This document shows positions 4,493 to 51,846 of a DNA stretch of 64,000 nt, one piece after another. Source of the stretch: a virus; IMG/VR virus record IMGVR_UViG_3300036820_000005, positions 47,057 to 111,056 of that record. One strand, given 5' to 3'. The translations under genes were made by a program, and so were the position numbers. The notes beneath the pieces were generated by a model. That model saw only the letters and a list, made by a program, of their open reading frames with translations, did no database searches and had not been told where the DNA came from. Each line of letters starts with the position of its first letter. The stretch's first letter is position 1.

Positions 4493-4938
4493 CACCCGAA
4501 CACGTCGAGGGCATGTGGCGCCGGATCAACGAACTCGCCGGGACCAACCCGGCTGAGGCCGCCCGCACCAAGCAAGACCACTACCTGTCGGTCCTGGTCG
4601 CGATCGCTAACGGGAACGCGCAACCCGACCCGGCGAGTCTCGCGCGGGCGGTGCTGCGGCAGGTAGCCGAGAGCGGGCCGACGGCTGACCAGGCCGAACC
4701 TGCCGCCAAGGCGTCGAGTGGCCCCGGCTGGCCACGGGACACGCAGCCGGCAGGGCAGTCTTCCACCGACGGTGCTGGCCGCCAGTGGGTGACGGACTTG
4801 ACCGGCCGGGCGTGGATCGAAGCTGACGGCCTGTGGTATCCGTCGCATCCCGAGACGATGAGCGCTGAAGAGGCCGAGCTGGCCGAGACCCGCCGGCAAG
4901 CCTCGCAGCGGCTCCAAAGGTACCGACAGGAAGGCTAG
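4489..4938 (+). CDS. Hypothetical protein, 149 aa
   Basis: A helical N-terminus (EHVEGMWRRINELAG), a Pro/Ala/Ser-rich linker, a small aromatic module (WVTDLTGRAWIEADGLWYPSH), then a charged C-terminal helix ending QEG. The ending EG* is repeated by the next several genes because they share the GGAAGGCTAG junction. Function unknown. Confidence 0.7.
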   Translation: MTPEHVEGMWRRINELAGTNPAEAARTKQDHYLSVLVAIANGNAQPDPASLARAVLRQVAESGPTADQAEPAAKASSGPGWPRDTQPAGQSSTDGAGRQWVTDLTGRAWIEADGLWYPSHPETMSAEEAELAETRRQASQRLQRYRQEG

Positions 4939-4943
4939 ACGCC

Positions 4944-5102
4944 ATGGCTGACGAGCTGGAGCCGGTGGTGCTGCCGGACACGCTGAAGCACATTCAGGTG
5001 GCGGCCAGCCTGGCTGCCGAGGCGACACGCCCGCTGGTGCATGCCCTCCGCGACCTGGGCCGCGCCATCGTGACCCAGAAGGAGGCTAGACGGCATGGCT
5101 GA
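4944..5102 (+). CDS. Small protein, 52 aa
   Basis: Begins at the ATG of a GGCTAGACGCCATGG junction and encodes an amphipathic helical protein (TLKHIQVAASLAAEAT). Unlike its neighbours it reads through the next junction in another frame, ending QKEARRHG at the TGA that overlaps the following gene. Unrecognised. Confidence 0.55.
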   Translation: MADELEPVVLPDTLKHIQVAASLAAEATRPLVHALRDLGRAIVTQKEARRHG

Positions 5103-5367
5103 GGACCGGCCGACCTTCAACGAGGCGGCGGCCGAGTTCCAGTCCGCTCTCGTCGAGCTCATCATCCTTAGGACGTTCCCGTGGATGACCAGGCTGCTGC
5201 GGTGGGCGACCAGGCTGCTCGTGAAGTGCCGAGACGGCATGGAGCTTCGCCTAGAACGCGACCCGGCCCTGACGACCGGGCACTGCCTGATGCTGCGTAT
5301 GGGCCGCCGCGAATGGTTCGCCTGGTGGGATCGGCGGCCCCGCTTCGCAACGTGGAAGGAAGGCTAG
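5095..5367 (+). CDS. Hypothetical protein, 90 aa
   Basis: ATG behind AGAAGGAGGC. The N-terminus is amphipathic with a hydrophobic run (LVELIILRTF), the middle is basic and aromatic (WMTRLLRWATRLLVK), and the end is Trp-rich (REWFAWWDRRPRFATW). Possibly membrane-associated. No family recognised. Confidence 0.65.
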   Translation: MAEDRPTFNEAAAEFQSALVELIILRTFPWMTRLLRWATRLLVKCRDGMELRLERDPALTTGHCLMLRMGRREWFAWWDRRPRFATWKEG

Positions 5368-6272: not shown

Positions 6273-6769
6273 CTGAGGTCCGATACGAGCGAGGTCGCGC
6301 CGACCCCGTCGGCATATTCAACGTCCACACGCGCGGCCGGATCTACCACGGCGACGACGACACCCAGTGCGAGCATGGCGTCGACCTGACCCGCGAACTG
6401 CCCCGGTACAACCCGCCCGGCCGGCTCGGCGACGTGATCCTGCCGCTCCCGCTGCTCTGCACCGCGGGCCGGGCCTTGACCCGCCTGGAGTTCGACGACC
6501 AGGCCGGATTCATCGCGGCACCGGCGGCCACGCTGTCGGCTGCCCTGGTGCTCTCCGACAAAGCGGCCCTGGCCGGAGCCGGCACGATCACCGCCATGCC
6601 GCCCGATCCCAGGTACGGGGCCGGTTACAGGGACGGCGGGAACAGCGTCATCGCCGACATCCGCATCCAGTTCGACGACGCCGCCGACACGATGGACGAC
6701 CTGCTCGGGTTCTTCCGCCGCCTGACCGGCGACCCTGACCTTGCATGGCCCGGACACGAGGAAGGCTAG
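6269..6769 (+). CDS. Hypothetical protein, 166 aa
   Basis: ATG overlapping the previous TGA. Mixed alpha/beta composition with FNVHTRGRIYHGDDDTQCEH near the start, a hydrophobic middle (VILPLPLLCTAGRALTRLEF) and an acidic C-terminus. Ends GHEEG at the next junction. No family recognised. Confidence 0.7.
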   Translation: MTEVRYERGRADPVGIFNVHTRGRIYHGDDDTQCEHGVDLTRELPRYNPPGRLGDVILPLPLLCTAGRALTRLEFDDQAGFIAAPAATLSAALVLSDKAALAGAGTITAMPPDPRYGAGYRDGGNSVIADIRIQFDDAADTMDDLLGFFRRLTGDPDLAWPGHEEG

Positions 6770-6772
6770 ACG

Positions 6773-7408
6773 ATGGCTGACGAGACCGAGGTCACCTGGC
6801 CTGAGCCGAGGCCGGTCCTCCCGGTCACAGGCGAGGTTGACGAGTTCACGCTGACCGGCGACGGCCGCCTGGTGCCTAAGCCAGGACCAGGCGAGACAGC
6901 CGAGCTGGTCGCTGGCCAACTGAAGCGCGCGATCGACCAGGACCCCCGGGCCAAGCTGATCGGCGAGCTTGAGCACCAGCTCGCCGAGCACAGGTCGATC
7001 GTCTACCTGCTCGTGGAACGGCTCGGCGGGCACGTCCTGATGCCCGACATCGACCTGATCCAGCTCCCGCAGGAGGCCGGGCTGACGTGGTGGGAGTCCC
7101 GGGCCGACGGCGGCTGGCACCTGTCCACCAGAAGGGGGCCAGGCGCTGCTAAGCCCGCGCAGGACGACCGGACTCCATGGCAGGCCGATCGTGCCCGTGT
7201 AGAGGCTTCCGGCAAGTGGCCTCCGTCATGGGGTCCGTTCCACCGGCACTTTGCTAACGACGCGGTCCACCGAGACGGCGGCCAGGAATGCGATCAGCCC
7301 GGTACTCCCCGGCGGGTCTACGTGTTCGACGACGACTATCTGCACGCGCACGAGCTGGCGGTAGCCCGGTGGGCCATCCAGCACCCGGACTTGTTTGAGG
7401 AGGCTTAG
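6773..7408 (+). CDS. Hypothetical protein, 211 aa, paralog of the gene at 7828
   Basis: A central charged helix and strand (residues about 60-100) reads HRSIVYLLVERLGGHVLMP. The gene at 7828 has QQQVIWLLVHRLGGTVRIT in the same setting, so they share a module. The C-terminal part has FDDDYLHAHELAVARW. Function unknown. Confidence 0.75.
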   Translation: MADETEVTWPEPRPVLPVTGEVDEFTLTGDGRLVPKPGPGETAELVAGQLKRAIDQDPRAKLIGELEHQLAEHRSIVYLLVERLGGHVLMPDIDLIQLPQEAGLTWWESRADGGWHLSTRRGPGAAKPAQDDRTPWQADRARVEASGKWPPSWGPFHRHFANDAVHRDGGQECDQPGTPRRVYVFDDDYLHAHELAVARWAIQHPDLFEEA

Positions 7409-24834: not shown

Positions 24835-26367
24835 GTGGCAGTGGTAGCGGTCAGCGCGTGGGAGTATGCGGCCCGCCAGTTCGAGCCGAAACCCCGCACG
24901 TACGTTTCCCCGCTCGCGCTCGCAAAGCACCTCGACCCGCGGACCGGGACCAGCGCGGCGCTGAGGCTCATCGACCAGGCCCTCGTCGCCCTAGCCGACG
25001 GCGACACCCCCGAGAACGCCCTCCTGGTCACGATCCCGCCGCAGGAGGCCAAGAGCACGACCATCGTGCGCCGGTTCCCCGAATGGCTGCTCGACAACGA
25101 CCCAGCCTGCCGGATCGCCATCGCCAGCTACGAGCTCGACACTGCCGTCCGGTGGGGCCGCGACATCCGCCAGGACATCCAGCAGTCCGACGGGAAGCTC
25201 GACATCCCGTTCCGCCCCGACGCCACCGCGATGGCCAGGTGGGAGACACCCCAGGGCGGCGGCGTCTACTGTGTCGGCGTCGGCGGCCCGCTGACCGGCC
25301 GCGCCGTCGACGTGCTCCTGGTCGACGACCCCGTCAAGGACCGCGCCGAGGCCGAATCGGCGAAGATCCGGCAGAACATCTGGGACTGGTGGGAGTCCGT
25401 CGCCCTGACCCGCCTCGCACCCGGCGCCCGCACGGTGCTCGTCATGACCCGCTGGCACGAGGACGACCTGGCCGGCCGGATCCTGTCCCGGCCAAGCCCG
25501 CTGAAATGGCGGGTCCTGAAGATCCCCGCCATCGCCGAAGCCGCCGACCCGCTCGGCCGCCGGCCAGGCGAGGAACTGGTCTCGGTCCGCGGCCGGGAAG
25601 CCGGCTACTTCCTGAACCTCCGCGCGACGATGAGCCCGTACACGTTCTCCTCGATCTACCAGCAGTCCCCCACCGCGGCGGAAGGGAACTTCTTCCGCAG
25701 GGCCACGTTCAGGTACTGGCGGCCGGCCGTGTCGTGGTCGGACGGCCGGGTCCGCCTCGACCTCGAAGGCCGCATCGTCACCCTGCCGGACTGCTGGCGG
25801 TTCGGCACCGTCGACGTCGCCGCCAGCGTCAAGACCAGCGCCGACTACACGGTCATCAGCATGTGGGCGGTGTCGCCGGACGGAGACCTGATCCTCCTCG
25901 ACCGGGCCCGCCAGCAGGTCGCGGAACACGACCACTTCGCCCTCGCCCAGGGCCTGTTCGACTCGTGGGGGGAATGCCAGCTGTACGTCGAGCGGCATTT
26001 CTTCGCCACCACCCTGGTAACTGACGCGCAGGCCGCCAACATCCCCGTTGCCGAGGTCGTCGCCGACACCGACAAGGTCACGCGCGCCATCCCCGCCGCC
26101 GGCCGGGTCCACGCGGGCCGGGTGTGGTTCCCCGCAGAGGCGTCCTGGCTGGACGAGTGGACCGACGAGCTGGCCTCCTTCCCGAACGGCACGCACGACG
26201 ACCAGGTCGACACGCTCTCCTACGCGGCCAGGGTCCAGTCGGCCGAATGGACGCCGCCGCGGCCGCCGCCCCGGCCAGGCGTCGACCCGCACGAACGGGC
26301 CATCAACATCGCCGCACGCTCGGCGACAGGCGAAGACGGGTTCGACCCGATGACCGCCCAATGGTAA
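24835..26367 (+). CDS. terL: Terminase large subunit
   Basis: 510 residues: the ATPase-nuclease that packages phage DNA into the procapsid. The ATPase part has a Walker A-like TIPPQEAKST (67-75), Walker B VLLVDDP (160-166) and motif III TRWHEDDLAGRIL (205-217). The C-terminal RNase H-like nuclease has VDVAAS with D327, an acidic E386 in YVERHFF and HDDQVDTLSYA with D455/D456. Walker A is unusual in having Ala where Gly normally precedes the Lys. GTG start without a strong ribosome binding site. All other motifs look intact. Confidence 0.93.
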   Translation: MAVVAVSAWEYAARQFEPKPRTYVSPLALAKHLDPRTGTSAALRLIDQALVALADGDTPENALLVTIPPQEAKSTTIVRRFPEWLLDNDPACRIAIASYELDTAVRWGRDIRQDIQQSDGKLDIPFRPDATAMARWETPQGGGVYCVGVGGPLTGRAVDVLLVDDPVKDRAEAESAKIRQNIWDWWESVALTRLAPGARTVLVMTRWHEDDLAGRILSRPSPLKWRVLKIPAIAEAADPLGRRPGEELVSVRGREAGYFLNLRATMSPYTFSSIYQQSPTAAEGNFFRRATFRYWRPAVSWSDGRVRLDLEGRIVTLPDCWRFGTVDVAASVKTSADYTVISMWAVSPDGDLILLDRARQQVAEHDHFALAQGLFDSWGECQLYVERHFFATTLVTDAQAANIPVAEVVADTDKVTRAIPAAGRVHAGRVWFPAEASWLDEWTDELASFPNGTHDDQVDTLSYAARVQSAEWTPPRPPPRPGVDPHERAINIAARSATGEDGFDPMTAQW

Positions 26368-28937: not shown

Positions 28938-31148
28938 ATGGCGCAGCAGCAGTTCAGCGGCGCCCCCACCTCCGACATGGGCACCCCGGACCTGTACTGG
29001 GGCACCTGGGGCCAGGGACTCCTGTCCGAATGGTGGGAGACCGCCCCGCAGCTGATCTGGCCCGAAGCCGTCATCACCTACGGGCGGATGCGTCACGACC
29101 CCCAGTGCAAAGGGGTCCTGTCCGCGTACAAGCTGCCGCTGATGCGCGCCACCTGGGCGATCGACCCGGCAGGCTGCCGCGACGAGGTAGTCCAGCTCTG
29201 CTCAGAAGACCTGGACCTGCCGATCCTCGGCAACGCCGACGACGACTCGTGGAACGCCGACAACGACGGCCAGCCTGCCCGGACCAGCGGCGTGACGTGG
29301 AAACGGCACCTGTCCCAGGTGCTGCAGTACCTCGAGTTCGGCCACATGATCTTCGAGCGCAAATACCAGATCGTCGGCGACCAGCTGCGGCTGCTCGCGC
29401 TCGGCGAGCGGATGCCGTGGACCGTGGCCAGGATCATGCTCAACCAGGACGCCACGATCAACCACCTCGTGCAGTACATGCAGGAAAAGCCGATCCCGGC
29501 GAACCGGCTGGTCTGGTACGCGCACGAGCACGAGGGCGCGAACTGGGCCGGGTTCTCCCTGCTGCGGTCGGCGTTCGCCCCGTGGCTGCTGAAGCACGAA
29601 TGCTGGCGGGTGCTGGCCACGTCGATCCGCCGGTTCGGGATGGGCGTCCCTACCGTCGAAGCGCCGCCCGGCGCGACGCAGAACCAGGTGCAGCAGGCCA
29701 GCAGCCTCGCCTCCAGCATGCGGGTCGGCGACATGTCCGGTGTCGGCCTGCCCAGCGGGTTCAAGTTCAGCCTGGCCGGGCTGACAGGGAACGTGCCGGA
29801 CTCGCTGGCGTTCATCCAGTACCTCGACGGGCAGATCGCCAAGCAGGCCCTGGCCGGGCTGATGGAGCTCGGCGACACCCAGAACGGCAGCAGGGCGCTC
29901 GGCGAGACGTTCCTTGACCTGTTCCTCCTGTCCCTGCAGGGCGTCGCCGACGAGATCGCGACCGCGGCGACGGTCGGCTGGCCGCAGATGCCCGGCATCC
30001 TCGCCGACCTCGTGGCCTGGAACTGGGGCGCCGACGAGCCAGTCCCGAAAATCGTCTGCACCGACGTAGGCGAAAACTACGAGGTCTCCGCCCAGGCGAT
30101 CGACCAGCTGGTGCAGCACGGCGCACTCGACCCCGACCCGACCCTGGACGCCTGGATCCGCAAGGCATGGCGGCTGCCCGCCCGCGACCCCGACGCGCCG
30201 TCCAGCCTCCCGCCGAAGCCGGGCCCGCCCCTCGGGCCGGAGCCGGGGCCCGGCGGCGGGCCCGCCGGAGACCAGGCCCCCGCCAGCCAGGGACAGGCAG
30301 GAACGGCAGCGAGCCGCCGCTCAGGCAGGCACCGGGCCGCCGCGCCGGGCGGGTTCCGCCGCCAGCCGACACAGATCGAGGCGGCCTCCGGGTTCGACCC
30401 CGCCATGGTCCGGCAGGAATGGCTCGACGCCCGGACCGCCCTGATCGCCTCATACAAGCTGCAGGTCCTCGGCGGCCTGCAAGACGACCTCGCCGGGCAG
30501 GTTGAGGCCAGCGTCCAGGCCGGGCAGCTCGGCAAGCTCGCCTCGCTGACCGTCGACACGGACGCGGCCGCGACGCTGATCGGCGGGGCGATGCTCGGCC
30601 TGGCCCGCACCGCGGCGAACCGGGCGCGGGCCGAAGCCGCGTCGCAAGGCGTCAAGATCCCCGCCGCCGGGGTGGCACTGCCCGAGGCGAAGATCGGCCA
30701 GGTCGCCGCGGCCAGGGCCGGGCTGCTCGGCTCCTGGTGGGCGCAGCAGGCCAGCGGCAAGGCCCTCCAGGTGTCCGCGGCGGCCGCCCACCCGCCCCTT
30801 CCGGTTCGGCTGCCCGCCGACATCGCCGACCTGATCCGCGAGTTCCTCGAGGGGCTGTCCGACGCCAGCCTTACCGACCAGCTCGGCGCCGCGCTCACCG
30901 CAGGCCAGAACGTCGGCCGGATCTCCGTCATGGAAGCCGCGGCCGCGTCGGGCGGGACCGCCCAGTACGTGGCCACGGAGATCGAGGACGACAACACCTG
31001 CAAGCCCTGCCAGGACGAGGACCAGCGCGTGTTCGCCAGCCTCGCCGGCGCGCAGGCCGCCTACCCGTCCGGCGGCTATATCGGCTGCCTCGGCGGGATG
31101 CGGTGCCGCGGCACGGTCATCGCCTACTGGGGAGGGCTGACGCCATGA
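28938..31148 (+). CDS. Portal protein fused to MuF-like head morphogenesis domain
   Basis: 736 residues. Residues 1-430 look like a DUF935/Mu gp29-type portal (HDPQCKGVLSAYKLPLMRAT; LEFGHMIFERKY; GFSLLRSAFAPWLLK; LGETFLDLFLLSLQGVADE). It forms the dodecameric vertex for DNA passage. A Pro/Gly linker (about 425-450) leads to a helical C-terminus ending with a MuF-type Cys motif (DNTCKPCQDEDQRVF). In many phages these are separate genes; here one frame covers both. Translationally coupled to the protease (ATGA). Confidence 0.88.
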   Translation: MAQQQFSGAPTSDMGTPDLYWGTWGQGLLSEWWETAPQLIWPEAVITYGRMRHDPQCKGVLSAYKLPLMRATWAIDPAGCRDEVVQLCSEDLDLPILGNADDDSWNADNDGQPARTSGVTWKRHLSQVLQYLEFGHMIFERKYQIVGDQLRLLALGERMPWTVARIMLNQDATINHLVQYMQEKPIPANRLVWYAHEHEGANWAGFSLLRSAFAPWLLKHECWRVLATSIRRFGMGVPTVEAPPGATQNQVQQASSLASSMRVGDMSGVGLPSGFKFSLAGLTGNVPDSLAFIQYLDGQIAKQALAGLMELGDTQNGSRALGETFLDLFLLSLQGVADEIATAATVGWPQMPGILADLVAWNWGADEPVPKIVCTDVGENYEVSAQAIDQLVQHGALDPDPTLDAWIRKAWRLPARDPDAPSSLPPKPGPPLGPEPGPGGGPAGDQAPASQGQAGTAASRRSGRHRAAAPGGFRRQPTQIEAASGFDPAMVRQEWLDARTALIASYKLQVLGGLQDDLAGQVEASVQAGQLGKLASLTVDTDAAATLIGGAMLGLARTAANRARAEAASQGVKIPAAGVALPEAKIGQVAAARAGLLGSWWAQQASGKALQVSAAAAHPPLPVRLPADIADLIREFLEGLSDASLTDQLGAALTAGQNVGRISVMEAAAASGGTAQYVATEIEDDNTCKPCQDEDQRVFASLAGAQAAYPSGGYIGCLGGMRCRGTVIAYWGGLTP

Positions 31149-33643: not shown

Positions 33644-34609
33644 ATGTCTGGTTACACCTACCCGCCGCTCCCGCCGACGTTGTCGGGTGATCTGGAGACC
33701 ATCTCCCGGTTCCTCCAGTCGCCGACCCAGATCCGCAGGCGCCTCCGCGACTACGTGGACCTGAGGTTCATCAGCGACCAGATCCTGACGAACCGGTGGA
33801 ACTCGACCGGCGGCGCGGCCCTGTACGAGCAGACCGAACCTTTCGTCACGGATAGGCCCGTTCAGTCGGTTGCCCCCGGGTCCGAGTACCCGCAGGCAGA
33901 CGCCCCGACCGGCACCGGCGGCATCGCGGCCGTCCAGAAGTGGGGCCAGATGGTCCCGCTCACCGACGAGCAGATCGACAGGAACGTTTACGCAGGTCAG
34001 ATAGTTGACCGGACCTTGCAGAAGGTGGTCAACTCGGTGATCGCCCAGGTCGACAACATCACGATGTCGGCCGTCATGAGCACCGTCTCCCTCGAGGTCT
34101 CCCCGACCGCGGCATGGGACGGGTCCGGCGATGCGGCGCCGACGATCCTGCGGGACGTCCTGCTCGGCGTCCGGCAGATCACCGGCCAGCTGCAGGGCTA
34201 CAACCCGGACACGCTGCTGGTCACCGACGTCATGTACGCCTACATGATGTCCGACCTCACCGTGTCGAACCTGCTCAAGCGCGAGGACAGCACCAACCCG
34301 ATCTACACCGGTGAGATCGAGATCCTGTCCGGGCTGACGCTGGTCCACTCGCCGCACGCCCCGAACGACCCGCTGATCCTGGACTCGGCCGAGTTCGGCG
34401 GAATGGCCGACGAGATCTCCGGCTCCCCGGGCTGGGCGATCTCCGACCTGGCCGTGCAGATCAAGTCGATCCGCAACGACCGCCGCGACCGCTGGGAACT
34501 CCAGGGCAGAAGGATCACGGTCCCGATCATCCAGAACCCGAACTCGGCCTGCGCGATCCTTGGCGCGTCCGGGTCCGAGGGCGGCGGCGAAGGGAGCTTC
34601 TCCGTATGA
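33644..34609 (+). CDS. Major capsid protein (HK97 fold)
   Basis: 321 residues. It has an N-terminal arm (PTQIRRRLRDYVDLRFISDQ), WGQMVPLTDEQIDRNVY in the E-loop/spine region, then LLGVRQITGQLQGYNPDTLL and a beta-hinge end (WELQGRRITVPIIQNPNSAC). Order and length fit an HK97-fold capsid subunit without a long delta domain, which agrees with a separate scaffold upstream. ATG has GGAGGAACGAG upstream. Most likely the most abundant virion protein. Confidence 0.9.
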   Translation: MSGYTYPPLPPTLSGDLETISRFLQSPTQIRRRLRDYVDLRFISDQILTNRWNSTGGAALYEQTEPFVTDRPVQSVAPGSEYPQADAPTGTGGIAAVQKWGQMVPLTDEQIDRNVYAGQIVDRTLQKVVNSVIAQVDNITMSAVMSTVSLEVSPTAAWDGSGDAAPTILRDVLLGVRQITGQLQGYNPDTLLVTDVMYAYMMSDLTVSNLLKREDSTNPIYTGEIEILSGLTLVHSPHAPNDPLILDSAEFGGMADEISGSPGWAISDLAVQIKSIRNDRRDRWELQGRRITVPIIQNPNSACAILGASGSEGGGEGSFSV

Positions 34610-36511: not shown

Positions 36512-37675
36512 ATGCTCAGAAGGCTCACCGGCACGATGGCGCTCACGCTGCTCGCAGGGCTTGGCCTGGCGGTCAGCGGGAACGTCGCCGCCGCAACGGC
36601 GGCGTCAGCCGGCACTCCGCTGGTCAGCGCGACGACCAGCATCGCGAACGACCCCGATACCGGCGGCAACGGCACCTGGGCCGACGACGACTTCACCAGG
36701 ACGCTGACGGTCAGCACCGACCCGACGAGCAGCGACTGCGCGGCACTCGCCGGCTGGACCGCCTCGGCCGACGTCTGCTACTCGGCGGCCATCACGGACG
36801 CCGGGACCGCGAACACGGTCGTCAACGCCTTCCAGCCCAACCAGGGCAGCAGCACCCTGGCGGACCAGACCGGCGACAAGATCACCGGCCCGTCCGAAGG
36901 GGTGCCGTTCACCGGCACCGCCAGCTACCAGTTCTACGCGCCAGCCGGCGGCATCCCCTCCGCCGCGGACGTCCCCGCCACGCTGAACGACAACTTCGCG
37001 AAGCCTTCCGGAGCTGCGAGCACGTCGGAGTGGTACCTGGAGGCGTTCGCCGCCACCGGCCGCACAGGTGTCTACACGGGCGGCATCGGGAACTGGTCGT
37101 GGACCTACGCCGATTCCTGCGAGTCGTGGACCGACGCGAACACGAACAGCCAGGGGCAGTCGACGCCGCTGTCGGACGACGGGAACATCACCGGCAAGGC
37201 CTGCGCGACCCCCGCCGGGTTCAGCGGCGGCCAGGGCGACGTGATCAACCGGTTCGGCAACGGCCTCGACGTCCGCGACCAGCGGCCCGCGGTGAACAAC
37301 CTGATCATCGCCTACCCGGTGACGGGCACCGATCCGGCCGTCCAGTTCGACGTGATCCCGGTCGGGGACGGCTGGGCGTTCGAGTACGCGCCGCTCAAGG
37401 TCGACTCGGGGCTGTGCGTGTCCGAGGCAGTCGGCAGTGAGCCTGCCGGATCCAACCCGACCGGCCTGGTACTGCGGGACTGCCTGTGGAACAAGTTCCA
37501 GCGGTTCACCCTCAGTGTCGGCGCGAACGGCAGCTTCCAGCTCGTCAACGCGGCCACCGGCCAGACGATCCAGCCGAACGGCACCCGCGCCCAGATCACC
37601 GGGGAAAACACGCTGAGCAACGTGGCCGGGTCGTGGTGGGCGTGGAACACGCCCGGGTCGGCACCCGCCGCGTAA
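36512..37675 (+). CDS. Secreted protein of unknown function, 387 aa (likely moron)
   Basis: Residues 1-33 are a signal peptide (LRRLTGTMALTLLAGLGLAV, then small residues ending ASA). The mature protein is Thr/Ser/Gly-rich with paired Cys, including DSGLCVSEAV and VLRDCLWNKFQRF; the end (QLVNAATGQTIQPNGTR) has a lectin-like look but I cannot name a fold. ATG behind GGGAGGGCAGAA. The gene is not a virion type and lies inside the structural operon, consistent with a lysogenic-conversion gene. Confidence 0.75.
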   Translation: MLRRLTGTMALTLLAGLGLAVSGNVAAATAASAGTPLVSATTSIANDPDTGGNGTWADDDFTRTLTVSTDPTSSDCAALAGWTASADVCYSAAITDAGTANTVVNAFQPNQGSSTLADQTGDKITGPSEGVPFTGTASYQFYAPAGGIPSAADVPATLNDNFAKPSGAASTSEWYLEAFAATGRTGVYTGGIGNWSWTYADSCESWTDANTNSQGQSTPLSDDGNITGKACATPAGFSGGQGDVINRFGNGLDVRDQRPAVNNLIIAYPVTGTDPAVQFDVIPVGDGWAFEYAPLKVDSGLCVSEAVGSEPAGSNPTGLVLRDCLWNKFQRFTLSVGANGSFQLVNAATGQTIQPNGTRAQITGENTLSNVAGSWWAWNTPGSAPAA

Positions 37676-37689
37676 GACAAGAAGACCTG

Positions 37690-38235
37690 ATGCCTGCCCG
37701 CTGGGTTGAGACGCGGATGATCCCGCTCGACGAGCTGACCCCGTTCCCGGGTAACGCCCGCCGAGGCCTCATCCCGAAGATCCAGGATTCGCTCCGGCGG
37801 AACGGGCAGTACAGGTCGCTGGTGGTCCGCCAGGACGGCGTAGCACTCGTCGTCCTGGCGGGCAACCACACCATGCAAGCCCTCGCAGCCGAGGGGCACG
37901 CTGAGGCCCGCTGCGACGTGATCGAATGCACGGACCAGGAAGCCCGCCGGATCAACCTGGCCGACAACCGGCTATCCGACCTCGCCACCGACGACAAGCA
38001 GGCCCTCGCCGACCTGCTCGCCGAGATCGACGACCTCGAAGGCGCCGGGTACACCGCCAAAGACGTCGAGAAGCTCACCGGCACCCCGCCGGGTCCTGAA
38101 CCCGGCGAAGCGCCCGTAGACGACCTGGAGACGGTGTGGGGCGTGATCATCGAATGCGACACCGAAGCGCAGCAGGACGCCCTGATCGCCCGGTTCACCG
38201 GCCAGGGCCTCGACGTCCAGCCGCTGACGGGATGA
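37690..38235 (+). CDS. ParB/Srx-fold protein, copy 1
   Basis: 181 residues. Contains LTPFPGNARRG, NGQYRSLVVRQDG, VLAGNHTMQALAAEGH and ARRINLADNRLSDLA, the order of ParB/sulfiredoxin-fold domains (nucleotide-binding, DNA-cleaving or kinase-like in different families). The ParB box GERRxRA is replaced by AGNHTMQA, so it is not a classical partition protein. First of two tandem copies that open the modification-like cassette. Confidence 0.85.
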   Translation: MPARWVETRMIPLDELTPFPGNARRGLIPKIQDSLRRNGQYRSLVVRQDGVALVVLAGNHTMQALAAEGHAEARCDVIECTDQEARRINLADNRLSDLATDDKQALADLLAEIDDLEGAGYTAKDVEKLTGTPPGPEPGEAPVDDLETVWGVIIECDTEAQQDALIARFTGQGLDVQPLTG

Positions 38236-38239
38236 CCTG

Positions 38240-38764
38240 ATGCCCGCCCGGTGGATCGACACCCGGGAACTGCCGATCGACGAGCTGACCCCGTTCCCCG
38301 GCAACGCCCGCCGCGGGAACGTCGACCTGATCCGCCAGTCGGTCCGCCGCAACGGCCAGTACCGGTCCCTCGTCGTCCGCGCCGACCGGGGCGCCTTCGT
38401 AGTCCTGGCCGGGAACCACACGATGCGTGCGCTCGCCGCCGAGGGCCACACGACTGCCCGGTGCGAGCTGATCGAATGCACCGACCAGGAAGCGAGGCGG
38501 ATCAACCTGGTCGACAACCGCCTGTCCGACCTCGCCACGGACGACAAGACAGCGCTCGCCGCCCTGCTCGCCCTGCTCGACGGGGACCTGGAAGGCACCG
38601 GTTACACCGCGAAGGACGCCGAGCTGATGAAACCGCAGAAAGGCGACACAGAGCTGTTCAGGCTCTACGGCGTGATCATCCGCGTCCCCGCCGAGGAGCA
38701 GCAGCTCCAGCTGCTCGAGCAGCTGTCCGGCGAGGGCCTGAACGTCCGCGCGCTGATCGCATGA
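38240..38764 (+). CDS. ParB/Srx-fold protein, copy 2
   Basis: 174 residues, a close paralog of the preceding gene over the first 130 residues: GNARRG (21-26), NGQYRSLVV (38-46), VLAGNHT (55-61), then RRINLVDNRLSDLATDDK. The C-terminal 40 residues differ but both end in a similar strand-helix (VIIRVPAEEQQLQLLEQLSG). Duplication followed by divergence suggests distinct targets or a heterodimer. Confidence 0.85.
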   Translation: MPARWIDTRELPIDELTPFPGNARRGNVDLIRQSVRRNGQYRSLVVRADRGAFVVLAGNHTMRALAAEGHTTARCELIECTDQEARRINLVDNRLSDLATDDKTALAALLALLDGDLEGTGYTAKDAELMKPQKGDTELFRLYGVIIRVPAEEQQLQLLEQLSGEGLNVRALIA

Positions 38765-38779
38765 CCCGAGGAGAGCCCT

Positions 38780-39862
38780 GTGAAAGCTGACTTCACCCTG
38801 ACCTGCCCGATCGAGAAGTCAGGGCGGGTGATGCAGCTCGCCTCACTGTTCGACCTGCCCGTCGAGGCGAAGGCCAGCGTCCACGTGCAGGCGTCCCTGC
38901 CGGTCGAGGAACGCGACTGGAACGTCGGCCTGATCGTCGGCCCGTCCGGCGCCGGCAAGTCGTCGCTGGCCCGGCACCTGTGGCCCGGCCAGGTCGTGAC
39001 CGGGTTCGACTGGCCCGACGGCCGGTCCCTGGTCGACGCGTTCCCCGCCAGCATCGGGATCCGCGACGTGACCGGCCTGCTGACCGCTGTCGGCCTCGGC
39101 TCCACGCCGACGTGGCTGCGGCCGTACTCGACCCTGTCGACCGGCGAAGCGTTCCGCGCGACCATCGCCCGCGCGCTGGCCGAAACCGGCGACCTGATCG
39201 TCGTCGACGAGTACACCAGCGTGGTAGACCGGCAGGTCGCCAAGGTCGCCTCCCACACGGTCCAGAAAGCGGTCAGGCGGGCCGGGCGGCAGCTCGTCGC
39301 GGTCACGTGCCACTACGACGTGGAGGAGTGGCTGCAGCCCGACTGGGTGTACGACGTGGCCGCCGCCGAGTTCCGCTGGAGGTCCGTTCAACCCCACCCA
39401 GAGCTCCACCTTGAGATCTACGAGAGCGGGAAAGCCCTCTGGCCCGTGTTTGCGCGCCATCACTATCTGAGCGGCGCCCTGTCCGGCGACGCGGAATGCT
39501 ACGCCGGGTGGATCGACGGACGGCCGGTCGCGTTCACCTCGGCGATCCCCTGGTCAGGCAAGACCAGCCCCGTGATGAAAGGGCACCGGCTGGTCGTCCT
39601 GCCCGACTACCAGGGCCTCGGGATCGGCGGCAGGCTCGACGACTGGCTCGGCCAGCTGCTCTACCGGCGGGGCCTGCGGTACCGGAACACGGTCGCCCAC
39701 CCGCTGATGGTCCGGTTCTACTCCCGGTCCCCCAGGTGGCGGGCCACGGCGAAGCCGATGAGGCAGCTCGGCGCCAGCCACGACGGGCAACGCCACCAGT
39801 GGCAGAACCCGCGGCTGCTCGGCACCTGGACATTCGAGTACGTGCCCACGAGGGAGGGGTAA
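38780..39862 (+). CDS. ABC-type ATPase fused to GNAT acyltransferase
   Basis: 360 residues. ATPase half: Walker A GPSGAGKS (54-61), signature LSTGEAFR (119-126), Walker B DLIVVDEYTSVVD (138-150) and an H-loop VTCHYD (175-180). GNAT half: WPVFARHHYLSGALSG (221-236), DGRPVAFTSAIPW (246-258), acyl-CoA loop LPDYQGLGIGGRL (274-286) and an RFYSRSPRW segment. There are no membrane segments, so this is not a transporter. Phage Mu Mom, a GNAT-fold enzyme, modifies adenine in DNA; a similar role is inferred here. GTG behind GAGGAG. Confidence 0.85.
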   Translation: MKADFTLTCPIEKSGRVMQLASLFDLPVEAKASVHVQASLPVEERDWNVGLIVGPSGAGKSSLARHLWPGQVVTGFDWPDGRSLVDAFPASIGIRDVTGLLTAVGLGSTPTWLRPYSTLSTGEAFRATIARALAETGDLIVVDEYTSVVDRQVAKVASHTVQKAVRRAGRQLVAVTCHYDVEEWLQPDWVYDVAAAEFRWRSVQPHPELHLEIYESGKALWPVFARHHYLSGALSGDAECYAGWIDGRPVAFTSAIPWSGKTSPVMKGHRLVVLPDYQGLGIGGRLDDWLGQLLYRRGLRYRNTVAHPLMVRFYSRSPRWRATAKPMRQLGASHDGQRHQWQNPRLLGTWTFEYVPTREG

Positions 39863-40224
39863 TGCTGAGGACCTGGGTGACCGCGAAGCTGCACGGGATC
39901 ACCGTCACCGCCGCCAGCGTCGACTACCACGGGTCGGTGACCATCGGCGCCGACCTGATGGACGCCGCCGGCATCGAGCACGGCGAGCAGGTCCACGTGG
40001 TGAACCTGTCGACCGGCGGCCGGTGGGTGACCTACGCCCTGCCCGGCCCCGAAGGCGTGTTCACGCTGAACGGCGGCGGCGCCCGCCTCGGCGTGCCCGG
40101 AGACAAATGCGTGGTCATGACGTTCGGCCTTGCCGAGCACGCGCCCGGCGCGGCTGTCGTGTTCTGCGGCGTCGGCAACGAGGCGATCGACCAGGCGTTC
40201 TACCCGGCCGGGCTGCCGCGGTGA
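39862..40224 (+). CDS. panD: PanD-like aspartate 1-decarboxylase (pyruvoyl type)
   Basis: 120 residues aligning without gaps to E. coli PanD over the first 60. K9, H11, Y22, the G24-S25 self-cleavage pair (DYHGSVTI), R54, T57 and Y58 all sit at the E. coli positions, and N70 with LNGGGA matches N72. PanD cleaves itself to form a pyruvoyl group and converts aspartate to beta-alanine. A decarboxylase inside a phage structural operon, between an acyltransferase and a CoA-transferase, is very unusual. TAATG coupling to the ATPase-GNAT gene. Confidence 0.9.
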   Translation: MLRTWVTAKLHGITVTAASVDYHGSVTIGADLMDAAGIEHGEQVHVVNLSTGGRWVTYALPGPEGVFTLNGGGARLGVPGDKCVVMTFGLAEHAPGAAVVFCGVGNEAIDQAFYPAGLPR

Positions 40225-40925
40225 GAATCCTCGAACTCGGGTCATACGTGGTCGTCGGGTACGCCGGCCTCCTGCTGGCCGAGCAAGGCCACCAGGTCAC
40301 GAAATGGACCGCCAGCCACCCCGACCCGATCGAGGGCCTGCACCGCGGCCCGGAACTGTGGGCGTGGATCAACCACGGCAAGACGCTGACCGAACGGCAC
40401 GCCGCCACCGTCGGAGACGCGCTCCTCGCAGACGAGTTTGACGCGGTGATCGATAACATCCGCGCCGACACGTGGGCGAAGTGGGGAGTCCGGCCGGGAT
40501 GCCTGGCCGCCGCGCTCGACCTGACCTGGGTGTCGATGCGCGACGACTTCGACGGCCGGTCCTTCGACGCGATCGCCCAGGCCCGCGCCTGGGGTGACCA
40601 CCTCGGCTACCTCCCCGCATACCTCGGCGACACCACAGGCGGCCTGTGGCTCGCCTACAAGCTCCTGGCGGCCCCTCCAGGCCACCACATCCTCCGGCAG
40701 GCCGCATGCCTCGCCAAGCTCGTCGAGGGCGAGCTGGTCGTCCCGCCGCCGACCCCGCGGCAGGGGCCCGGCGGCGAACCGCCATGGGACCAGGCCGGCA
40801 CCTACGGGCAGGACGGCGACGGCACACGGGTCTGGTACCGCGGCGCAGAGGTCCGGGAGCCGTTCCGTGACACGGAATGGCGGCGGACCAATTTGCGCCA
40901 TTCCGGCGGCCGTTACGTCATCTGA
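40221..40925 (+). CDS. Short family III (CaiB/BaiF-type) CoA-transferase-like protein
   Basis: 234 residues. ILELGSYVVVGYAGLLLAEQ (3-22), INHGKTL (50-56), DAVIDNIRADTWAKWGV (74-90), FDAIAQARAWG (115-125) and LGDTTGGLWLAYKLLAA (135-151) follow the order of formyl-CoA transferase family enzymes, with D137 in the place of the catalytic Asp. Family members are usually about 400 residues, so the C-terminal half is missing or replaced. GTG overlaps the PanD-like stop. It would move CoA between acids; possible acceptor beta-alanine. Confidence 0.8.
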   Translation: MRILELGSYVVVGYAGLLLAEQGHQVTKWTASHPDPIEGLHRGPELWAWINHGKTLTERHAATVGDALLADEFDAVIDNIRADTWAKWGVRPGCLAAALDLTWVSMRDDFDGRSFDAIAQARAWGDHLGYLPAYLGDTTGGLWLAYKLLAAPPGHHILRQAACLAKLVEGELVVPPPTPRQGPGGEPPWDQAGTYGQDGDGTRVWYRGAEVREPFRDTEWRRTNLRHSGGRYVI

Positions 40926-41447: not shown

Positions 41448-41912
41448 GTGAAGGTCCTGTCCGTACGCCAGCCGTGGGCTGGCGCCATCATGCTCGGCCT
41501 GAAGCCGGTCGAGAACCGCAGCTGGGAGCCATGGGAGAAGGTCGACGGCGGAAGGGTGAAGTTCCGCGGCCGGCTGCTGATCCACGCGAGCGCCCGGCCC
41601 GACAGCGACGGCCCGCGGTTCATCGCCAGCCTCGGCATCCGAATGCCGCATGACCTGCCGATGGGCGTCATCCTCGGCAGCGTCGAGCTGTACGACGTCG
41701 TGACCGATAGCCGGTCGCCGTGGGCCGAGCCCGGCCAGAAGCACTGGCTGATGCGCGACCCGAAGCCGTGGCTGCGGCCGATCAAGGCGAACGGCGAGCT
41801 GGGCCTGTGGGAGTGGGACGCGGTCCCAGGCGGCGGGCCGGTCCAGGCCCGCCGTGACCCGCCTGCACCGCCGCCGGATCAGGGCGGCGTAGTGCCGGTC
41901 TGGACCGTCTGA
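41448..41912 (+). CDS. ASCH-domain protein
   Basis: 154 residues: LSVRQPWAGAIMLGLKPVENRSW at the start (read as LSVRQPWA, then VENRSW), RGRLLIHAS (about 40-48), GVILGSVELYDVV and a W-AEPGQKHWLM region ending GELGLWEW. This is the ASCH fold, an RNA-binding/nucleotide-acting relative of PUA; one ASCH protein, YqfB, hydrolyses N4-acetylcytidine. The phage role is not known. GTG behind GAGGAGAGCC. Confidence 0.85.
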   Translation: MKVLSVRQPWAGAIMLGLKPVENRSWEPWEKVDGGRVKFRGRLLIHASARPDSDGPRFIASLGIRMPHDLPMGVILGSVELYDVVTDSRSPWAEPGQKHWLMRDPKPWLRPIKANGELGLWEWDAVPGGGPVQARRDPPAPPPDQGGVVPVWTV

Positions 41913-48615: not shown

Positions 48616-51600
48616 ATGGCGACATTCGGCGCCGCCATGGCGCAGGCCTTCGTCAGGCTCCGCGTTGACAGCTCTGCCGTCGCAGCGGACACCTCGAAGG
48701 GCATAGAGGAAGGCGCCGGCTCGGCCGATGTCGAGCAGGCCGGGACGTCAGCCGGGACGAAAGCCGCGTCCGCGTTCAGCAAGGCGTTCAAAGTCGGGGT
48801 CCTCGGCGCGATCGCGATAGTCGCCGCGTCGGTCGCTACGGCGGTCGACTTCCAGACCCAGATGACGAAGATCCAGACGCAGGCCGGCGCGTCCGCGTCC
48901 CAGGTGAAGCAGCTATCCCAGCAGGTGCTCCAGCTGGCCCCCTCGACCCAGCAGGGGCCGCTGCAGCTCGCCGAGGCCCTGTACCACCTGAAGTCCGTCG
49001 GCATGGACGACGCGACCGCCATGAAGGACCTGAAGACCGCCTCGGACCTCGCCGCGACCGGCGGGTCGAACCTGGAGCAGACCACCAACGCGCTGGCCGC
49101 GGCGTGGCGGTCCGGGATCAAGGGCGCCCAGAACTTCGGCACGGCCGCCGCCACGGTGAACGCGATCGTCGGCGCCGGCAACATGACCATGTCGCAGCTC
49201 GTCGGCGCCCTGTCGACCGGGATCCTGTCCGCGGCGAACACGTTCGGCGTGTCCATGGTCCAGGTCGGCGGTGCCCTGGCGCTGATGACCGACGAAGGCG
49301 TGCCCGCCCAGCTCGCCGCGACCCGGCTGCGGATGTCCCTGTCGCTGCTCGGCGCGCCGTCCGTCACGGCGTCGAAGCAGCTCGCCTCGATCGGCCTGTC
49401 GTCCACGTCCCTCGCCCAGGCGCTGCGGTCCGGCGGGCTGATCGGCGCGATCGGCCTGCTGAAGCAGCACATCCAGGACGCAGGCCTGTCCGCCGTGCAG
49501 ACCTCCCAGCTGCTGTCCAGGGCGTTCGGCGGCGGCGAGTCGTCCAGCGCGATCCTGACGATGGTCAACAACTTCGCCACGCTGAAGCGGAAGCAGGACC
49601 AGATCAACGCCGGGATCTCCCGGTACGGCGCCGACGTCCAGGCGCAGCGGCAGACCGTGCAAGCCCAGCTCGACCTGCTCAAGTCGTCGTTCGAGACGCT
49701 GGGCATCCGGATCGGCGCGGCTCTGCTGCCGCCGGTGACCAGGTTCGTGACATTCCTGGCCGGCACGGTCGTGCCGAAGGTCGCCGGGTTCGTCCAGCAG
49801 GTCCTGCAGCTCCTCGGCCTCGCCCCGAAAGCCGCCCCGCCGGGGATCAACCGGTCGGCGGGTACGCCTGCCGTGACGCCGATGCTGTCGTCCGTCGCCG
49901 CGACCACCATCGCGATGAAAGGCGGCCTGACCGGGCAGACCGGCACCGCGGCGCAGCTCAACCCGGCGTCGTACACGCAGCCCGCAGCCGCCCAGGCGAA
50001 GCAGCAGGCAGCCCGGACCGGCACGCAGATCGTCAACTCCATCGTGGACGCCCTGGTCCGCGGGGCCGGGAAAATCGGCCAGGCGCTCATCACCATGCTC
50101 GGGAAGATCGACTGGGGCTCCCTCGGCAACATGGCGGTCCATGCGGCGATTCCGTTCATCGTCGAGTTCGTGAACAACTTCATCAACGCGGTCGTGGATG
50201 AAGCCATCCACCATCCTCTCGACCTGCTGATGTTCATCACGGCACTGATCCCCCTGGGCAAGGTGGCGGACATCACGGAGAAGCTGTTCGGCGAGATCCC
50301 GATCCTGGGTCCGCTGGTCAAGGCGATAACCAAGCCGCTGGTCAAGGTCGGCGAGCTGGTCGAGAAGCCGCTGTTCGGGCTGCTGAAGAAGATCTTCGGG
50401 CCACTCGGCGACATCATCGTCACCTCGGCTAAGGACGGCCTGGAGACCGCGTGGACCTGGCTGTTCGTCAAGGGCGACGACCTGATCGGCGGCCTGCTGG
50501 ACGGGGCGAGGGAAAAGCTCGGCGGGGTGCTGTCGTGGTTCGGGCGGATCGGCTCCCGGGTCATCAGCGCGGTCGGGGATCTCGCCGAGAAGCTGCTGAA
50601 ACCCGGCATTGACCTGATCAAGGGCCTCCTGGACGGGGCGAAGGGCAAGTGGGGCGACGCGGCCGCGCTGTTCAAGGGGATCCCGGGGAAGATCCTCGAG
50701 TTCTTCACCGGGTCGTCGAAGCTGCTGGACAAAGCCGGAACCGACCTGATCAAGGGGCTCCTCGACGGAGCGGAGGCGCGCGAGCCGGGGGTGATGTCGT
50801 GGCTGCGGTCGATCCCGTCGAAGATCATCAGCATTTTCGCTGATGCCGGGTCGTGGCTGCTAGACGCAGGCAAGAAGCTCATCGGCGGGCTGATCAGCGG
50901 GATCACCTCGAAACTCGGCGGGATCGGCCACGCCATGGGCTCCATAGGGTCGCTGATCAAGAGCTTCCTGCCGTTCTCCCCGGCCAAGCAGGGCCCCCTG
51001 TCCGGCAAGGGCGACCCGTACTACTCGGGCCTGTCGATCGGCAAGAAACTCGCCGCCGGTATCACCGCGACGCTGCCCGTCCTGAAGAACGCAGTGTCCG
51101 GAACGCTCGCCCAGATCAACTCGGCGCTGTCCCAGGCCGCCACCGAGCAGAAGTCCGGCACGTCCCAGCTGGGCAAGCTCACCTCCCACTACAACAGCCT
51201 CGAAGCCGCCCGCAAGAAGGAAGAGGCCTCGATCGAGAAGCTCGTCCAGGAGCGGTCAGCCGAATACAAGAAGGAAGGCGCGGCATCCGATGCGCTGCGC
51301 GCGCAGCAGGAGCTGGAGATCAAGAGCCTGGAGAAGCTCCGCTCCACCCAGGAAACCCAGGTCAAGCAGACCGAGGCCGTGATCAAGACCCTCCGCGCGT
51401 CGCTGACCAAGCTGAAGGACGAGGTCGACAAGCTGAAGGAGGCAGCTAAAAAAGCCGCCGCCTCATCGGGCAGCTCGTCATCGGACGACGGCTCGTCGGA
51501 CGATCAGCCCCCGGACTGGGCGAACTTCAACCAGTGGCTCGCGGAAACCGGCCCCGCCGGCCCCGGCGGGCCAGCGGCCGGCGGGTCATGGCAGGGGAAC

Positions 51601-51846
51601 CCGGGCCCGCTCGGCGGGTTCGGTCTCGCGTTCGACCAGGACGGCAGGCCGCGCCCGTCCGGCAGGTTCGACGGCCCCCCGCCGGGCTTCGGCCGGCAGG
51701 GCGGCGACCCGCTGATGGCGATGCTGATCGACCGGATGGACCAGGTGGTCAGCACGCTGAGGACGCAGCCGGGGAAGAACGCCGCTGCCACGGCTAGCGC
51801 GATGAACGGTGTGGCCGGGACAGCGATCGTGAGGGGGAACTGGTGA
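48616..51846 (+). CDS. Tape measure protein
   Basis: 1076 residues. The N-terminal helical part ends in LGAIAIVAASVATAVDFQTQ, then TMP-core sequence (LQLAEALYHLKSVGMDDATA, LVGALSTGILSAANTFGVSM, LGAPSVTASKQLASIGLSST). Hydrophobic helices in the middle, internal repeats of LIKGLLDGAKGK/LIKGLLDGAEAR type (about 655-730) and a coiled-coil C-terminus. By the rule of about 0.15 nm per residue the tail would be near 160 nm. Starts right after the chaperone stop. Confidence 0.92.
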   Translation: MATFGAAMAQAFVRLRVDSSAVAADTSKGIEEGAGSADVEQAGTSAGTKAASAFSKAFKVGVLGAIAIVAASVATAVDFQTQMTKIQTQAGASASQVKQLSQQVLQLAPSTQQGPLQLAEALYHLKSVGMDDATAMKDLKTASDLAATGGSNLEQTTNALAAAWRSGIKGAQNFGTAAATVNAIVGAGNMTMSQLVGALSTGILSAANTFGVSMVQVGGALALMTDEGVPAQLAATRLRMSLSLLGAPSVTASKQLASIGLSSTSLAQALRSGGLIGAIGLLKQHIQDAGLSAVQTSQLLSRAFGGGESSSAILTMVNNFATLKRKQDQINAGISRYGADVQAQRQTVQAQLDLLKSSFETLGIRIGAALLPPVTRFVTFLAGTVVPKVAGFVQQVLQLLGLAPKAAPPGINRSAGTPAVTPMLSSVAATTIAMKGGLTGQTGTAAQLNPASYTQPAAAQAKQQAARTGTQIVNSIVDALVRGAGKIGQALITMLGKIDWGSLGNMAVHAAIPFIVEFVNNFINAVVDEAIHHPLDLLMFITALIPLGKVADITEKLFGEIPILGPLVKAITKPLVKVGELVEKPLFGLLKKIFGPLGDIIVTSAKDGLETAWTWLFVKGDDLIGGLLDGAREKLGGVLSWFGRIGSRVISAVGDLAEKLLKPGIDLIKGLLDGAKGKWGDAAALFKGIPGKILEFFTGSSKLLDKAGTDLIKGLLDGAEAREPGVMSWLRSIPSKIISIFADAGSWLLDAGKKLIGGLISGITSKLGGIGHAMGSIGSLIKSFLPFSPAKQGPLSGKGDPYYSGLSIGKKLAAGITATLPVLKNAVSGTLAQINSALSQAATEQKSGTSQLGKLTSHYNSLEAARKKEEASIEKLVQERSAEYKKEGAASDALRAQQELEIKSLEKLRSTQETQVKQTEAVIKTLRASLTKLKDEVDKLKEAAKKAAASSGSSSSDDGSSDDQPPDWANFNQWLAETGPAGPGGPAAGGSWQGNPGPLGGFGLAFDQDGRPRPSGRFDGPPPGFGRQGGDPLMAMLIDRMDQVVSTLRTQPGKNAAATASAMNGVAGTAIVRGNW

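Follow-up and report, generated by a model that had tools for sequence, protein, structure and literature searches.

Why would a phage carry an aspartate decarboxylase and a coenzyme A (CoA)-transferase among the genes for its capsid and tail? The question is raised by a 64,000-nucleotide stretch of viral DNA (bases 47057-111056 of the 111,056-base IMG/VR record IMGVR_UViG_3300036820_000005, hereafter the window), in which five genes, all on the + strand within 37690-40925, follow one another in the order ParB1, ParB2, an ABC ATPase-GNAT acyltransferase fusion (ATPase-GNAT), PanD and a short family III CoA-transferase. The ATPase-GNAT stop and the PanD start overlap by 1 base, and PanD and the CoA-transferase gene overlap by 4 bases. 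A previous reading of the DNA, referred to here as the original prediction, described five coupled genes inside a structural operon, and we located all five in place, after the terminase, portal and capsid genes and before the tape-measure gene (Table 1). The comparison with related loci suggests that the novelty lies in an acyl-CoA supply module specific to this lineage, itself well supported and with a predicted product, on a predicted acylation system.

A conserved gene set in soil phages

The gene set is conserved in a group of soil phages. Phage Jace (NC_047974), a temperate Rhodococcus/Gordonia phage that was isolated on Rhodococcus erythropolis and sequenced, carries ParB, ATPase-GNAT, PanD and CoA-transferase genes in the same order as the window, and the last three proteins are 57-60% identical to their counterparts there; PanD and the CoA-transferase of Jace are gp87 and gp88. 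Further loci were collected by scanning viral contigs with the CoA-transferase and with the ATPase-GNAT; a scan for PanD with the window sequence alone gave no match. In the window and in each of the 18 contigs that have sequence upstream, which do not include L014 (cut off there), the ATPase-GNAT gene lies upstream of the CoA-transferase gene, either adjacent to it or with only PanD between. The non-redundant CoA-transferase loci represent 13 lineages, nine with PanD (the window, L010, L012, L015, L017, the L019 group, L048, L053 and L058) and four without. Because Jace and many virus contigs, about 13 lineages in total, share this gene order, we rejected chance or random morons as an explanation, and the cassette appears to be an evolutionary unit. 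The original prediction had named as damaging any homologous phages that never combine the ATPase-GNAT with PanD and the CoA-transferase; we observed the opposite, the genes being together in every assessable case.

Gene content further indicates that PanD is tied to the CoA-transferase rather than to the GNAT. We examined 80 ATPase-GNAT loci among the matches listed, the family being larger; five of these carry the CoA-transferase, and the same five carry PanD. Within a 35-row ATPase-GNAT clade, counted without the second copy L019b, PanD was present in 9 of the 13 loci with a CoA-transferase and in none of the 21 without one (Fisher 1.4e-5, shared ancestry ignored). No CoA-transferase was found elsewhere in 11 ATPase-GNAT records without a local copy.

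The core to which these two enzymes are added is not new, as ParB and ATPase-GNAT form a very widespread phage pair. Among the same 80 loci, a ParB match was present on the contig in 79, nearly always directly upstream (1.5 kb away in one locus), and in the only locus without one the contig breaks off at the start of the ATPase-GNAT. Terminase small-subunit families were among the commonest annotated genes downstream. The window has both features of this family, a GNAT fused to a complete ABC ATPase and ParB genes directly upstream, here two. A protein of the Tenacibaculum phage pT24 is homologous to the window ATPase-GNAT, at 33% identity across 88% of the query.

An ABC-ATPase-coupled GNAT was predicted earlier by the Iyer/Aravind group to put an uncharacterised acyl group on a DNA base; compared with that prediction, as restated for pT24 in PMC7824862, PanD and the short family III CoA-transferase are additions. 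Our literature search found no report of the acyl group or of any test of this prediction, and nothing on phage PanD, beta-alanine or a CoA-transferase in DNA modification; the Rhodococcus phage paper covers Jace but, in the passages located, says nothing of the cassette. The suggestion that no described system has this set does not hold for the ParB and ATPase-GNAT core; the PanD and CoA-transferase supply addition looks new.

Proteins of the cassette

ParB1 bears the conserved C-terminal tail GVIIECDTEAQQDALIARFTGQGLDVQPL and is 62% identical to ParB2 over 139 residues, so that the two look like a tandem duplication. The ATPase-GNAT matched the Pfam families ABC_tran (33 bits), Acetyltransf_1 (28.6 bits) and Acetyltransf_7. 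Its ATPase part contains Walker A (GPSGAGKS), signature (LSTGE), Walker B (IVVDE) and D-loop (VVDRQ) motifs and a switch His (CHYD), while the GNAT part has QGLGIG as its CoA-binding motif (motif A). These motifs are invariant or near-invariant across the relatives aligned, and the AlphaFold model shows an ABC fold.

PanD had been called intact, and the residues bear this out. The best match in the PDB was an aspartate 1-decarboxylase (2c45, 3.6e-22), the self-cleavage site is Gly24-Ser25, and the substrate-binding residues Lys9, Arg54 and Tyr58 are present. Across all nine phage lineages with PanD, K9, H11, Y22, G24, S25, R54, T57, Y58 and N72 (E. coli numbering) are invariant. With all checked catalytic residues in place, the phage enzyme should make beta-alanine. 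It shares family, cleavage site and checked catalytic residues with bacterial PanD and differs in being coupled to a CoA-transferase instead of to the pantothenate pathway.

Several lines of evidence agreed on the assignment of the last gene to the short family III CoA-transferases. The PF02515 score of 23.6 bits lies just above the cut-off of 23.3 and covers only the N-terminal part of the profile. The AlphaFold model has a moderate pLDDT of 68.7, with a reliable N-terminal half, and in a Foldseek search with this model the best 19 matches were all family III; the structural matches in the PDB include Rv3272 (5yit, the best at 9.8e-9), YfdE, CaiB and formyl-CoA transferase. Profile comparison by hhalign with CaiB/Frc/YfdE gave an E value of 3.3e-5, and both MAFFT and hhalign aligned Asp137, which lies in a GDT motif invariant among relatives, with Asp169, the catalytic residue in Frc and CaiB of E. 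coli. The phage enzyme therefore resembles Frc/CaiB in N-terminal fold and aligned catalytic Asp, but differs in length: at ~234 amino acids against 405-416, it falls short of the roughly 400 residues of full-length members, and all relatives found lack the C-terminal part. When contigs of bacterial and archaeal genomes were scanned once with this protein, nothing matched, and at the sensitivity of that scan the family is apparently phage-restricted.

A predicted beta-alanyl transfer pathway and its alternatives

We propose that the cassette serves the phage as an acylation operon that brings along its own supply of acyl-CoA, in which beta-alanyl-CoA would be made and its acyl group attached to a macromolecule, most likely phage DNA; we put the probability of this reading at roughly 0.4. 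PanD would convert aspartate to beta-alanine, and the CoA-transferase would shift CoA from a host acyl-CoA to the beta-alanine carboxylate, giving beta-alanyl-CoA. The GNAT would then hand the beta-alanyl group over to a target amine; ParB may bind the target, and the ATPase may load or license. The target would most likely be phage DNA before packaging, because of the ParB genes, the terminase and ASCH context and the prior prediction given in PMC7824862, and the presumed purpose would be protection from nucleases.

The chain from PanD through the CoA-transferase to the GNAT, with ParB and the ATPase to handle the DNA, had been put forward in the original prediction; it fits the comparative data, but PanD proved optional in it. 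Several points weigh against our proposal. Four CoA-transferase lineages (L013, L018 and the closely related L016 and L025) lack PanD, and no PF02261 match was found elsewhere in their records, which span 10 to 89 kb and may be fragments. We also rejected a substitute gene in the PanD slot of these lineages, as the CoA-transferase gene starts directly after the ATPase-GNAT gene. There, either the enzyme would depend on the host for beta-alanine, and the host pool could serve, or the substrate differs. Independent pairs pointed in the same direction as the association of PanD with the CoA-transferase, but with only 4 pairs the sign test was not significant; the association rests on few independent events, and sampling was partly biased, many loci having been found via the CoA-transferase search. 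Neither the CoA-transferase acceptor nor the GNAT target can be read from sequence.

The likening of the GNAT to Mom of phage Mu, in turn, was not borne out as a family relation. In the published view (PMC7824862), Mom takes an acyl group, glycyl for example, from CoA and places it on adenine N6. The two systems share a GNAT-fold transferase and the idea of a CoA-derived acyl group; however, the Mom system has no ATPase, ParB, PanD or CoA-transferase. An hhalign comparison with shallow profiles, in which similarity was not detected (probability 0.3, E 0.23), led us to reject membership of the Mom family and likewise counts against our proposal.

The same machine may have another target: the GNAT may acylate a host protein, tRNA, or a protein of packaging or replication, with ParB and the ATPase forming a module for regulation or targeting. 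The substrates of GNATs are many, ASCH domains are RNA-linked too, and DNA modification in the members found here is itself a prediction. A jumbo-phage survey (PMC7824862) further lists phage GNATs with host RNA polymerase and ribosomal proteins as their predicted targets. The pervasive pairing with ParB and the closeness to terminase genes nevertheless fit DNA better, and we regard a target other than DNA as less likely. PanD might also feed pantothenate and CoA synthesis, raising the host CoA pool for the GNAT and the CoA-transferase while beta-alanine is not itself transferred. Beta-alanine supply for CoA is the ordinary role of PanD, and by family assignment both of its neighbours use CoA; yet the 21 same-clade loci without a CoA-transferase all lack PanD though their GNATs need CoA, and a search of seven virus records, G000 among them, found no pantoate-beta-alanine ligase (PanC), which the host may supply. 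Such a role is less likely, and we consider it improbable.

Were the CoA-transferase to activate another acid, for example a host dicarboxylate, PanD would be unrelated to it and the two genes would be neighbours through repeated joint transfer. The four lineages without PanD are in keeping with this, as is the established use of varied acids by family III enzymes, reflected in the molecules in the structural matches. That PanD occurs only with the CoA-transferase, always between it and the ATPase-GNAT, and has kept the checked catalytic residues in nine lineages makes an unrelated PanD unlikely. Finally, E. coli PanD is activated by a GNAT, PanZ, and the GNAT gene stands directly upstream of PanD here, so that the GNAT domain might act like PanZ/PanM, an acetyl-CoA-binding trigger of PanD self-cleavage, and the cassette would be a decarboxylase with its activator. 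This was disfavoured to the point of being far-fetched: most ATPase-GNAT loci lack PanD, which just 5 of the 80 carry, the CoA-transferase, ATPase and ParB would be left unexplained, and actinobacterial PanD matures without PanZ.

Beta-alanyl transfer to DNA would also set the cassette beside systems of other chemistry. Dnd, like the cassette, has an ABC-type ATPase, DndD. Both Dnd phosphorothioation and Dpd deazaguanine modification combine a ParB-superfamily protein (DndB, DpdB) with DNA-modifying enzymes (PMC12839542), but the sulfur or deazaguanine enzymes are absent from this cassette. Known defence-system models gave weak matches only, to the ABC-ATPase and ParB-MTase parts. If our proposal is correct, amino-acyl bases made from CoA thioesters would become a further type of phage DNA modification, and an enzyme of CoA biosynthesis would have a new use. 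The cassette points to a specific group, beta-alanyl, for a previously predicted DNA acylation, and Jace offers an isolated, sequenced temperate phage in which the idea is testable.

Other supply enzymes and neighbouring genes

Elsewhere in the ATPase-GNAT family, other enzymes replace the supply genes. In another part of the tree, L059 carries ParB, ATPase-GNAT and then subunit A of a family I CoA-transferase (4708-5276, 119 bits); its contig ends where a possible subunit B begins. In a further branch the enzyme is a PurN-like formyltransferase, with the ATPase-GNAT directly upstream in all 25 loci found by the formyltransferase search, and this arrangement also occurs in Porphyromonas and Pseudomonas phages; Pseudomonas phage Komp_PAO1_1 is of the PurN type. 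As these enzymes are unrelated and share one operon slot, convergent recruitment is suggested. PurN formylates a glycyl amide, and the PurN-like branch may accordingly fit the same supply logic. A broader and more doubtful proposition is that these phages produce their own beta-alanyl-CoA and place beta-alanyl on their DNA bases, and that the core serves phages generally for base acylation, with exchangeable supply genes deciding which acyl group is used: beta-alanyl in the window, the product of the family I CoA-transferase elsewhere and, for the PurN-like branch, a formylated aminoacyl. Such swapping at one operon position would turn genome neighbourhoods into adduct predictions.

Small open reading frames resembling the ParB C-terminal tail stand alone upstream of the ATPase-GNAT in three loci of the formyltransferase branch (L131 2710-2880, L148 2686-2853, L125 2737-2889). 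In a single case, L103, an AdoMet decarboxylase, pyruvoyl-type by family, directly follows the ATPase-GNAT (4840-5214). Variation was also observed around the ATPase-GNAT itself. L013 has a free-standing GNAT domain (6275-6898) directly 5' of the full-length gene; this domain is 41% identical to the C-terminal half of the ATPase-GNAT. In L019 (3035-4138; also in L020-L024 and L026) a second full ATPase-GNAT gene comes after the CoA-transferase and before a gene for a terminase small subunit, and in Aeromonas phage PX29 (L041, 6612-7100) a HAD_SAK_2 gene, of an RNA-repair-associated HAD family, lies downstream of the ATPase-GNAT.

Table 1. Cassette genes and surrounding features of the window, in window coordinates.
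Feature	Position	Strand	Match or remark
ParB1, ParB/Srx-fold, 181 amino acids	37690..38235	+	phrog_723 6.7e-37
ParB2, tandem paralogue of ParB1, 174 amino acids	38240..38764	+	phrog_723 4.4e-39
ABC ATPase-GNAT acyltransferase fusion, 360 amino acids	38780..39862	+	phrog_11143 1.4e-98; Pfam
PanD, pyruvoyl-dependent L-aspartate 1-decarboxylase, 120 amino acids	39862..40224	+	PF02261 98.6 bits
Short family III (CaiB/Frc-type) CoA-transferase, 234 amino acids	40221..40925	+	PF02515
ASCH-domain (PUA-like) protein	41448..41912	+	Adjoins cassette; less certain part; PF04266 14 bits, below cut-off
Terminase	24835-26367		5' of cassette
Portal	28938-31148		5' of cassette
Capsid	33644-34609		5' of cassette
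Tape measure	48616-51846		3' of cassette

The ASCH homologues that adjoin the cassette in 5 relatives exceed the PF04266 cut-off, and in 6 relatives (L010, L012, L013, L014, L015 and L017) the ASCH gene lies beside the CoA-transferase gene on the opposite strand. A reader role has been proposed for ASCH domains; the ASCH genes by the cassette fit such a role, making this protein a possible reader of the modification. Between the capsid genes and the cassette, the window also encodes a 387-amino-acid protein (36512-37675) whose N terminus is signal-like and which weakly matches ricin-B lectin.

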